Origin: Methanobacteriota archaeon
GTDB lineage: Archaea > Thermoplasmatota > Poseidoniia > Poseidoniales > Poseidoniaceae
Assembly: GCA_002726395.1 (NCBI GenBank)
Contig: PBTA01000007.1
Span: forward strand, 1-34,350
Direction: 5' to 3'
DNA length: 34,350 bases
Position 1 is the stretch's first letter; every line of letters starts with the position of its first letter. Under the pieces are notes generated by a model, which was not told the DNA's origin, made no database searches, and saw nothing but the letters and a program-made list of their open reading frames with translations. Position numbers and translations under genes: made by a program. Of the stretch, positions 451 to 34,350 are shown piece by piece.

Positions 451-684
451 ATGTCGAGTTATGAAAAGAGAGATATAGTAACTATAAAAAGAGGGGTAGA
501 TAAAAAGCTTCTATTTAACGCTTATGAATTATCGGAATTTAAAGTTGTTTTAGGAAGTTTAGACCGTCTGCGTAAGGGAAGGCGGCAATTTAGGCATTTA
601 GCAGATCAACAGGCTTTACACAGAGCATATATAGCAATTGACGAAATTTTGCAGCGCTACAAAGAAGTGGAGCAGCAGCAATGA
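451..684 (+). CDS. Hypothetical small early protein
   Basis: 77-aa ORF with SD-like aggag upstream; ATGA overlap with the next gene. Confidence 0.7.
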   Translation: MSSYEKRDIVTIKRGVDKKLLFNAYELSEFKVVLGSLDRLRKGRRQFRHLADQQALHRAYIAIDEILQRYKEVEQQQ

Positions 685-1361
685 ATGACGTTATAGGTTT
701 TATAGCTGGGGTAGATCCTGAGCTAAAAAAGAAACACCGCCAGCAGTTAAAAGCGCTAGCTGGGGAGAGGCATATAGACTTTGTAGAAGAGCCGGAAACC
801 TACAACATGCTAGCCTATGAAGCGCGTACAGAATTGCAGTACGCAATAACAGCAGCTGAGACTTCAGTAAGCGTACTTGCCGTTGCGTCAGCTACTGGCT
901 TAACGAATCGCAAGTGGAAAGCTTTACGGCTATTAGATCAGATAGCAGAGAAGGGGATCAGCATAGAGGTTGCTGACGATCCTAGCATAAATTCTCATTC
1001 TATCAGCGTCTTAGCGTACTCAGCTGAAGTAGCTAAAGAAAAATTATTGACAAGATCTAAGAAAGCTTTGCAGTCTATTAAATTGAGATTAGCGGCTGGA
1101 GAAGAGGTTTATAGCAGCAAGGGTAGAAAAATTACTAAGCTAGGTACGCCCCAAGCCACGGAAGCCATGAAACAGGCTAGAATTAGTAAGTCTGATGATT
1201 TTGCGTCTAAGATTTTTCCAACTATTAAACCGTACCTTGACCGTGGGTTAAGCTTGAATCGCATTGCCCAAGAGCTAAATCGTCAAGGCGTCAAGACTGC
1301 TAAGGGTAGAAAGTTTTATCAATCAACCATAAGCGCTATAGTAAGAAGGGTAAGCGAATGA
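681..1361 (+). CDS. Serine-recombinase/resolvase-like protein lacking catalytic residues
   Basis: C-terminus (GTPQATEAMKQARISKSDDFASKIFPTIKPYLDRGLSLNRIAQELNRQGVKTAKGRKFYQSTISAIVRRV) is a typical resolvase-tail HTH. The N-terminus follows the resolvase core, but YxRVST is replaced by FIAGVD and the KLDRLxR region by SATGLTN. Confidence 0.65.
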   Translation: MNDVIGFIAGVDPELKKKHRQQLKALAGERHIDFVEEPETYNMLAYEARTELQYAITAAETSVSVLAVASATGLTNRKWKALRLLDQIAEKGISIEVADDPSINSHSISVLAYSAEVAKEKLLTRSKKALQSIKLRLAAGEEVYSSKGRKITKLGTPQATEAMKQARISKSDDFASKIFPTIKPYLDRGLSLNRIAQELNRQGVKTAKGRKFYQSTISAIVRRVSE

Positions 1362-2020
1362 ATAAGATAAACGAAACACAAAGGTATCGTACAATCGGTA
1401 ACTATTATGACGATAAATGTGAGCACTGTGGGCAGCCGTGTGTTGACGACGTGTGTGAGTGCAGAGACTTTATTGGAAAACAGGAAGTCATACTGACCGA
1501 CAAAAAAGATAGGCTAACTAACTTTCCTAAAGATGGAAACGATCTGCGCGACTTTCGTGAGCATTTGACAAACGCATTTTTGCAAACACAAATTGCGTTA
1601 GAGCATGAAATTTATCTAGACAAAAAGGCTTGGTCAGAGAGAAACGAAATGTGTGACTGGATCTTTGCAACGCCAAACCGACAAATGATGTTTTGGATGT
1701 TTGCAAAAACTCCAATTATTAATGGCTGGACGGTTGCTGAGGCGGCTGAATATTTAAAACGTGACCGTACAAGTGTGTCGAAGGATCTGTCGGATATGCA
1801 CAGTAAGAAATACATTTATCGTAACAACAAAGAGGGTTTTCAGCGGCATTATTTGCCTAGCCGAACATTATTGAATAATGCGTTATGGTTCTCAGAATAT
1901 TATGTAGACACTACTTTGCGGCTTACTGAGGACAGTGCGCGTAGAGATTTTTTTGAGTATCGTTCGTCAGAGCGAGAGTATTTTAAAAACATGCAAAAGC
2001 GTGGCAGTACTGCACAGTAA
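1358..2020 (+). CDS. Zinc-ribbon plus winged-HTH DNA-binding protein
   Basis: CEHCGQPCVDDVCEC cysteine cluster near the N-terminus; WTVAEAAEYLKRDRTSVSKDLSDMHSKKYIYRNN resembles a wHTH. Confidence 0.5.
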   Translation: MNKINETQRYRTIGNYYDDKCEHCGQPCVDDVCECRDFIGKQEVILTDKKDRLTNFPKDGNDLRDFREHLTNAFLQTQIALEHEIYLDKKAWSERNEMCDWIFATPNRQMMFWMFAKTPIINGWTVAEAAEYLKRDRTSVSKDLSDMHSKKYIYRNNKEGFQRHYLPSRTLLNNALWFSEYYVDTTLRLTEDSARRDFFEYRSSEREYFKNMQKRGSTAQ

Positions 2021-4759: not shown

Positions 4760-4848
4760 TTTTTCATTTCCAGATATAAGCGATACACATTAGCACAAGT
4801 GTTAATTGTAACAGCTGTGAGCAAACAAAGTGCAATAGAAGTGGTCAT
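4756..4848 (-). CDS. 30-aa hydrophobic small protein in the lysis cassette, absent from the ORF track
   Basis: MTTSIALCLLTAVTINTCANVYRLYLEMKK*; overlaps both neighbours at identical ATGAAAAAATGA junctions. Confidence 0.5.
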   Translation of the reverse strand: MTTSIALCLLTAVTINTCANVYRLYLEMKK

Positions 4849-5261
4849 TTTTTCATATTCTCCCTAGCTACACCTTTGGATTTCTCGAATGATCTGAGGC
4901 CAGAAACGCCTAGAAGTGATAGCGTCAATGTCATCAGTGATCCTGTATCAAGCTCAAAAAGAACTACGTCAGGATACCAGACAGCTACTACCCAATCTGC
5001 TATTGGCATCACAAAGAAATTTAGAAATAAGCCTAATGTGCAGCACCATAAGATAGCTGGCCTTGCACCAGCCACAAAAAGGCTAGGGTGCTTGGCGGCT
5101 TCTACGTTTGCTTGTGCTTGAAGTGCAGCATTTTCAGCAGCAAGTTTCTCAGACATTGTAGCGATTTCATGCGCTAGTTTAGCTTTTTGGTCTTTGTCCT
5201 CTATTACTTTGTCGAGAATAGAACTAACCGGATTAATAAGCTTTTCAACAAGACCTAACAT
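4845..5261 (-). CDS. Holin, 3TM-type
   Basis: LINPVSSILDKVIEDKDQKAKLAHEI followed by hydrophobic segments; resembles the holin_3TMs pattern. Confidence 0.7.
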   Translation of the reverse strand: MLGLVEKLINPVSSILDKVIEDKDQKAKLAHEIATMSEKLAAENAALQAQANVEAAKHPSLFVAGARPAILWCCTLGLFLNFFVMPIADWVVAVWYPDVVLFELDTGSLMTLTLSLLGVSGLRSFEKSKGVARENMKK

Positions 5262-31980: not shown

Positions 31981-32068
31981 ATTTCGATAAAAAATCCTAG
32001 TTTACAATGTGTGTTTGTGTGTGATGCCGATTTGTAGGTTTTGGGTCATAGCGATAGAACTACCCCCC

Positions 32069-33177: not shown

Positions 33178-33322
33178 TCTTTGTCACCCATTGCGTATGC
33201 TCCTCAATATGTTTGACAATATCAGTCACCATAAAAGTAAACTGCTCAGGGTGAATGACAGCTATGAGCTTACCATCTACCCAAATTCTAAGCCCATCAT
33301 CATAGACTGCCCATCTAACCAT
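33167..33322 (-). CDS. 51-aa small protein, absent from the ORF track
   Basis: MVRWAVYDDGLRIWVDGKLIAVIHPEQFTFMVTDIVKHIEEHTQWVTKNEK*; overlaps both neighbours. Confidence 0.5.
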   Translation of the reverse strand: MVRWAVYDDGLRIWVDGKLIAVIHPEQFTFMVTDIVKHIEEHTQWVTKNEK

Positions 33323-33503
33323 TTTCTAATTCCTGTTTGCGCCTCTTGATCATGCTAATCTGCCAAGAGTTGTATTTTTTTAAATCTGCTTTGAGGTAGG
33401 ATCTACGGTTTGCTAGACCCTGTAGCTCCTCTCTTGAAGTCACAGCGTCTAAAACTGCCTTAAATTCTGTCATAGAGAGTTCAGCATAATCTTTAATATT
33501 CAT
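33315..33503 (-). CDS. Hypothetical small protein
   Basis: 62 aa; collinear. Confidence 0.5.
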   Translation of the reverse strand: MNIKDYAELSMTEFKAVLDAVTSREELQGLANRRSYLKADLKKYNSWQISMIKRRKQELENG

Positions 33504-33506
33504 GCA

Positions 33507-33530
33507 GAAGCCCTCCCCAAGAGGGGCTTC
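33507..33530. other. Imperfect hairpin GAAGCCCTCCCCAAGAGGGGCTTC overlapping the SD of the downstream minus-strand ORF
   Basis: GAAGCCC pairs with GGGCTTC, plus 2 bp past a bulge; no T-tract. Confidence 0.5.
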
Positions 33531-33537
33531 ATGCTAT

Positions 33538-33655
33538 GGGGGGGTATGGGGGGGAGCATGGAGGGTATGCAAGAAGGGGGCATGAAGCAATGCGTGAAGG
33601 GGGGCTTGAATAGAGCGTGAAGTTCAAAAATCATATGCATGTAGGGGGCGTGAAG
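33538..33655 (+). repeat. G-tract/iteron-like noncoding region with repeated GCRTGAAG
   Basis: GCGTGAAG at 33592, 33615 and 33648; GCATGAAG at 33580; related copies at 33556, 33604 and 33637; GGGGGGGTATGGGGGGG at 33538-33554. Confidence 0.6.
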
Positions 33656-33660
33656 GTACA

Positions 33661-34350
33661 TTACGCACCCACCTTTCTAATAAATTTGACCCGTCTGCTG
33701 GGTGATCCTTCCTCTTCTATTTTGATTTCTTTCCGCAAAATTAGGCGCTCTTGTGCCGCCATAAACTGCTTTTTGCTGACGCTTTCCCGATCCTCTGAAC
33801 GACTGAAAACTGTAGCTGCTGAGTTGTTGCTGGTGTAGTTAGGACTAAGCTTGACGCTAGCAGCTGTATGCACCTCTAACAGACGTAAAAACACTCTGTC
33901 AGCCTTAGCATCAACAGCAACGCGATCTAAGCTGTCTGTGGTTTTATCTGCCTCAAAAAAGCCGTCATGATAGTTCATAAGTATTTCGATACCTGTTTCA
34001 CCATAATTAGATTTCATTACGGTCAATTTTCGGGCTGTTTTGTCAGCCTCATAGCCGTCTTCCTGTATCCGCTGCATATATAGGCGTGAGCGCACCGAAT
34101 TGCTCCAGGCTGTGTTGCCGGATGTACCAGAGCCGCTAGCCATACCTGACAGACTAGGGTGACTGAGCAGCACCACAGTAGTATCAAAATCTACCGCCAG
34201 TTTACGCAGCTGACCAATAAACTGACGTGCTGAGGCTCTGTCATTCTCATTTGCAGGGAATAAGTCGGCCAGTGTATCTAATACCACCAAGCTAGGTTTT
34301 TCAGCGGCTACTTTTGTCACTATTTGCTGATATAAGGCGCTAGGATAGAG
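33661..34350 (-). CDS. RepA/AAA_25-like ATPase, truncated at the window edge
   Basis: SLVVLDTLADLFPANENDRASARQFIGQLRKLAVDFDTTVVLLSHPSLSGMASGSGTSGNTAWSNSVRSRLYM; frame stays open to 34350 (LYPSALYQQIVTKVAAEK). Confidence 0.75.
   Translation of the reverse strand, partial: LYPSALYQQIVTKVAAEKPSLVVLDTLADLFPANENDRASARQFIGQLRKLAVDFDTTVVLLSHPSLSGMASGSGTSGNTAWSNSVRSRLYMQRIQEDGYEADKTARKLTVMKSNYGETGIEILMNYHDGFFEADKTTDSLDRVAVDAKADRVFLRLLEVHTAASVKLSPNYTSNNSAATVFSRSEDRESVSKKQFMAAQERLILRKEIKIEEEGSPSRRVKFIRKVGA

Follow-up and report, generated by a model that had tools for sequence, protein, structure and literature searches.

To our knowledge, the replication origins of most environmental phages are unknown, and the question raised by the present locus is what a 157-bp stretch of phased repeats, located immediately behind a RepA-like helicase gene, does in such a phage. 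The window that was analysed, 34,350 nt in length, is part of contig C65 (37,633 bp), the ends of which (1-748 and 36886-37633) form a 748-bp terminal repeat with 99.2% identity. Because the ends repeat over 748 bp, the assembly is taken as circular (or concatemeric) at 36,885 bp, and because the two copies are not identical, a strain mixture is likely. Read along the minus strand, two genes for proteins of 208 and 134 aa precede the RepA-like ATPase; the repeat region comes next, followed by genes for 62 and 188 aa, one for an HNH endonuclease, and the terminase. No primase was identified in the phage, this RepA was absent from the TerL relatives of the phage, and a pattern scan with the 62-aa and 188-aa neighbours gave no relative or one weak relative.

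The MAG into which the contig had been binned has a size of 1.8 Mb and belongs to a small, unrelated-looking class (340 genomes, 25 genera). RepA was absent from the MAG itself outside the window, from 99 related genomes and from 339 genomes of the class, and the named relatives sharing the module were found to be all alphaproteobacterial, mostly Rhodobacteraceae. Since the relatives of RepA are alphaproteobacterial and the class of the MAG is without it, the phage contig is probably mis-binned.

The features of the region, in coordinates of the window, are the following.

33315 to 33503, minus strand: the 62-aa gene that lies past the module; in L210 and L211, the array is likewise followed by a gene of this kind (DYADLS..NRRSYL).
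33507 to 33530, minus strand: GC hairpin GAAGCCCCTCTTGGGGAGGGCTTC, overlapping the inverted copy and containing the Shine-Dalgarno GGGGAGGG of the next gene, read from the sequence.
33527 to 33534, minus strand: inverted copy of the iteron word, CTTCATGC (GCATGAAG on the minus strand), an exact match a few nucleotides past the core.
33538 to 33554, minus strand: core CCCCCCCATACCCCCCC, conserved on comparison across relatives; on the plus strand it is the tract first annotated as G-quadruplex-capable.
33556 to 33655, minus strand: iteron array, eight copies of CTTCAYGC(CCC) (GCRTGAAG on the plus strand), from sequence and repeat statistics.
33500 to 33661, minus strand: a 53-codon frame of uncertain status through the array, sharing TAATG with the RepA stop and ATGA with the start of the following gene.

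The initial annotation had listed seven repeat words, spaced from 33580 on by 12, 12, 11, 22 and 11 bp, and a G tract GGGGGGGTATGGGGGGG at 33538-33554. On re-reading, every word, coordinate and spacing and the tract itself were found as claimed, while a copy GCAAGAAG at 33569 and the inverted copy had been overlooked. The copy at 33569 closes the gap between 33556 and 33580, so that eight near-copies start at 33556, 33569, 33580, 33592, 33604, 33615, 33637 and 33648, in steps of 11-13 bp or two turns. The 157-bp region holds all five occurrences of GCRTGAAG in the circular genome of 36,885 bp, and non-overlapping copies with at most one mismatch number seven, against a maximum of five in 500 dinucleotide shuffles. 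These are tandem, helically phased direct repeats adjoining a putative initiator gene, as in an iteron origin. An AT-rich unwinding element, which such an origin has beside its iterons, was not obvious on inspection of the module, which is C-rich, its AT being confined to the TAT/ATA inside the core and to a brief AT-rich part of the array. On this count the module, although iteron-like in its presumed working, stands outside the classical plasmid iteron type. Folding of the region as RNA gave a z of -2.6; it had no match in Rfam, and a phage DNA search with it returned none. A GC-skew profile, which had been suggested as a check, tracks gene orientation and was uninformative on the origin. 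The Shine-Dalgarno of the 62-aa gene sits in the hairpin, and one arm of the hairpin overlaps the inverted copy of the iteron; translation of that gene could thus be influenced by RepA when bound, or by refolding of the RNA.

Conservation of GCRTGAAG in relatives had also been suggested as a check, and the word itself proved not to be kept. A scan of viral contigs for the literal pair GCRTGAAG-N4-GCRTGAAG listed at least 120 matches, a number close to the chance estimate, and the arrays inspected among them looked like coding repeats or chance occurrences. For the architecture the check came out differently, with an array 3' of RepA in most relatives and a word that covaries with the DNA-binding domain of RepA. 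In the first relative, L179 (a prophage contig, ~50% identity), CCCTTCATCCCC is repeated at 12, 12 and 11 bp directly past the RepA stop. When named genomes, viral contigs and Rhodobacteraceae genomes were scanned, 60 loci were obtained (49 distinct ones), and 43 RepA relatives, mainly Rhodobacteraceae prophages and marine viral contigs, were examined for an array. The architecture shared by most of them is the RepA stop, followed by 11-12-bp repeats of a phage-specific word and usually by a C-run/TAT/C-run core; the words differ by relative (CTTCCAACCCC, CTTCATCCCCC, GCGATCTCCCC, GGTGCAACCCCC, TGCAAACCCCC, CTTCGCGCCCC and others) within the same architecture. The repeat count exceeded that of all 100 shuffles in 27 of the 43 loci and that of every same-locus control window in 30, and among 195 copy spacings, 11 bp was found 91 times and 12 bp 21 times (112 together), with a further 30 at 22-24 bp.

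In ten loci (the window, L222, L224, L229, L233, L190, L202, L227, L236 and L199), the word of the respective phage recurs without mismatch in inverted orientation, starting within a few nucleotides past the core. Several further loci carry an inverted copy with one mismatch or a different inverted pair (CACACA/TGTGTG), and overall about a dozen relatives have an inverted copy of the word. The array is still kept in L211, where a 271-aa gene is inserted between it and RepA, and the module is inverted relative to RepA in Roseivivax (L198/L221); the array is absent in L197, and no significant array was found in the most distant relatives, L204, L238 and L239. The inserted gene of L211 (1771-2586), judged from its sequence, resembles a PAPS-reductase/ATP-pyrophosphatase. 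A literature search outside subscription papers found no description of this module, which is widespread and, it seems, so far undescribed.

The core CCCC(C)-(T)TAT/ATA-CCCC(C) was present in 27 of 42 3' regions against 7 of 658 control windows (p 1e-31), which bears on the G tract of the initial annotation. The tract does have G-quadruplex potential, and no other canonical G4 motif exists in the genome; moreover, four-run motifs are enriched in the 3' regions (15 of 42, against 12 of 1052 windows). That a G-quadruplex or i-motif is the functional unit is nevertheless very improbable, as the canonical four-run motif is missing from 27 of the 42 modules, the conserved element consists of two C-runs around TAT/ATA, and G-quadruplex formation leaves the words and their covariation unexplained. 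The tract is better read as the conserved C-run/TAT/C-run core.

The label "noncoding" first given to the 157 bp was found unsafe, for an open 53-codon frame runs through the array on the minus strand, fitting exactly between RepA and the next gene; L209 has a like tiling, and L210 comes close to it. Where the overlap reads RTGA, the coupled frame stayed open over 150 nt or more at 19 of 25 loci, whereas the remaining two frames did so in 19 of 50 cases (p 0.003). A small proline-rich gene, whose coding repeats would be the array, would account for this fit, but the 11-12-nt spacing is mostly not a multiple of 3, and therefore the DNA repeats determine the peptide, whatever the reading frame. 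The peptides of the relatives do not resemble a single family, with conservation at the level of the DNA word. Such a gene is thus a highly unlikely explanation, and the frame may at most serve translational coupling across the origin.

The same open frame bears on Rho-dependent termination of the RepA transcript, by which the C-rich, G-poor stretch with ~11-12-nt spacing, followed by a hairpin, would be a terminator. In 29 of the 42 modules, the sense strand of RepA has more than 1.5 times as much C as G, a GC hairpin follows in most of the modules, and the array spacing lies within the range known for rut sites. A Rho terminator, however, needs no phage-specific repeated word, no inverted word and no covariation with a winged helix, and the Roseivivax module is inverted relative to the gene. 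Where the array is translated, as the frame coupled to RepA would allow, the RNA would be shielded from Rho, which weakens the case for termination further. A terminator is an improbable account of the module, although Rho termination could be an additional role.

Recognition of the array by RepA is suggested by the protein itself, for which the following features were located.

33661 to 34350, minus strand: the C-terminal 229 aa of the RepA-like AAA_25 helicase (Pfam AAA_25, 4.7e-10), the gene of which continues beyond the window end on C65.
33673 to 33933, minus strand: winged-helix domain, residues 140-226 of 229, in an AlphaFold2 model with pLDDT about 80-97.
33688 to 33708, minus strand: the wing GSPSRRV, from alignment and model; its last residue, V221, is the column covarying most with the repeat word.

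The full-length frame is 381 aa in L003. A RepA profile matched RSF1010 RepA (1g8y) with an E of 1.2e-19 at positions 44-269 only, and the best Foldseek matches (1olo, 1nlf and 1g8y, all RSF1010 RepA) likewise covered the ATPase part only, so that profile and structure search both find the RecA-fold core of the RSF1010 RepA helicase family. The C-terminal domain of ~100 residues is uncovered by the profile match; Pfam did not recognise it and Foldseek gave no match. AlphaFold2 models it as helices at 140-163, 178-183 and 193-205 and strands at 209-214 and 221-226, and the full-length RepA of L210 showed the same winged-helix arrangement with high confidence.

Word distance was associated with RepA distance at 0.544 for the C-terminal domain and 0.243 for the ATPase domain. 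In partial Mantel tests, for which automated consensus words were used, the C-terminal domain retained 0.505, with none of 2000 permutations as high, while the ATPase domain gave -0.072 (p 0.75). Nine of the ten columns with the highest mutual information fall in the C-terminal domain, which holds 78 of the 358 alignment columns, and the best covarying column is the wing residue after PSKR. With word classes assigned by hand, this residue is Arg in 13 of 13 TTCC-type phages and Val or Thr in 10 of 11 TTCA/TTCG-type phages (TTCA 8/9, TTCG 2/2). With a tree built from the ATPase part only, 22 changes of word are counted, and phages with the TTCC label do not cluster; in the sister phages L190/L193 and L188/L186, word and wing differ together. 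Independent pairs all point in one direction (about 4:0), too few for significance (p 0.125). By sub-region, the association was 0.51 for S1-H2, 0.48 for the wing, 0.35 for H3, 0.21 for H1 and 0.23 for the ATPase, the value for H1 being at background level. A simple gradient of linkage with distance is unlikely because H3, which is nearer, scores below S1-H2; since the winged-helix DNA adjoins the array, however, co-transfer could inflate the covariation, and linkage stays a caveat.

Because the word varies in step with the DNA-reading tip of RepA, it is probable that RepA recognises the array behind its own gene; these comparisons of sequences argue strongly for binding. The covariation points to recognition and not to function, and RepA might bind the array for autoregulation, partition or incompatibility control while replication begins elsewhere. 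Plasmid iteron arrays, which also act in copy-number control, are a precedent for such a non-origin use. An autoregulatory operator, however, is expected 5' of the operon, and the location 3' of the helicase gene, the core with its inverted copy and the precedents of SaPI, SCCmec and pRN1 speak for an origin. A non-origin role is therefore considered unlikely. The origin-or-binding-array reading of the initial annotation is the best supported, on the basis of architecture and of covariation with the DNA-binding domain: quite probably, the region serves the phage's own RepA as replication origin or, failing that, as a specific binding array, with origin activity suggested by analogy to known systems.

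In RSF1010 (IncQ), RepA has no C-terminal domain and the iterons are read by a separate RepC. The RepA/RepB'/RepC replicon of that plasmid thus resembles the phage system in the ATPase core, for which 1g8y, 1nlf and 1olo are the nearest solved relatives, but in the phage the presumed DNA reader and the helicase are one protein. Self-loading helicases with an iteron origin directly 3' of their own gene are described in SaPI Rep and SCCmec Cch2 (PMC7581432, citing Ubeda et al. 2007). The likeness would extend to a C-terminal domain that reads short iterons just downstream of the helicase's own gene, such reading being suggested here by covariation, and the array is likewise positioned directly 3' of the gene. 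RepA is not a member of the SaPI Rep helicase families (DUF927 or D5/Primase_Cterm); by Pfam it is AAA_25, an RSF1010-RepA-like RecA-fold ATPase found in tailed phages. The phage module also differs from the SaPI/SCCmec origins in its C-run/TAT/C-run core, often with one inverted iteron. The origin of pRN1 also lies 3' of its rep gene (PMC4234260), and ORF904 combines helicase and winged-helix domains, but pRN1, which has no iteron array, relies on a stem-loop of 100 nt and on an SF3 helicase together with a fused primase. The RepA/ATPase of Phage WO is an AAA_25 protein 34-40% identical to the present one; in KX522565, the repeats 3' of its gene have another word, AAGWTGGCA, and no long C-runs. 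These repeats, direct and inverted (L242 4190-4400), are possibly an equivalent origin of the Wolbachia phage.

A mechanism can be proposed that treats RepA as a ring helicase whose ATPase core resembles that of RSF1010 RepA and whose C-terminus forms a winged helix. With the wing and the S1-H2 region, this domain would read the phage-specific 6-8-nt word, which recurs once per helical turn behind its own gene, and RepA would stack on one DNA face of the array. RepA would open the DNA near the C-run/TAT/C-run core, bounded by the inverted copy of the word, and then load itself onto one strand, presumably as a hexamer. Somewhat more likely than not, the phages have an initiator class in which an RSF1010-type RecA-fold helicase, fused to an iteron-reading winged helix, self-loads at a fast-diversifying origin behind its gene, and in which a wing code (Arg with TTCC, Val/Thr with TTCA/TTCG) would set origin self-specificity among related phages.

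The module provides a recognisable origin candidate for a group of alphaproteobacterial phages and prophages. The code of wing residue and word predicts which residues select which repeat, and origin self-specificity between related phages is made testable via a single wing residue or word. That word and wing have switched time and again points to selection against recognition by relatives, satellites or origin-directed nucleases, for the last of which the action of Odn against PLE origins (PMC8263062) offers a comparison.

Three further observations concern the rest of the window. The contigs of five close relatives (L005-L009) start at, or at most ~11 bp from, 32018-32029, a point just upstream of the small terminase and beside the HNH gene, and contig starts in several more distant relatives lie at a comparable distance from TerL; this point is probably a cos site, the physical genome end. 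At 681-2020, plus strand, a 226-aa frame with a serine recombinase signature (Resolvase and Recombinase, Pfam) overlaps the start of a second frame of 220 aa, which Pfam does not recognise; together they may represent a large serine integrase that is split or frameshifted. At 4848-5261, minus strand, a holin of gene-transfer-agent type (GTA_holin_3TM, 4.8e-15) was found, consistent with an alphaproteobacterial host.
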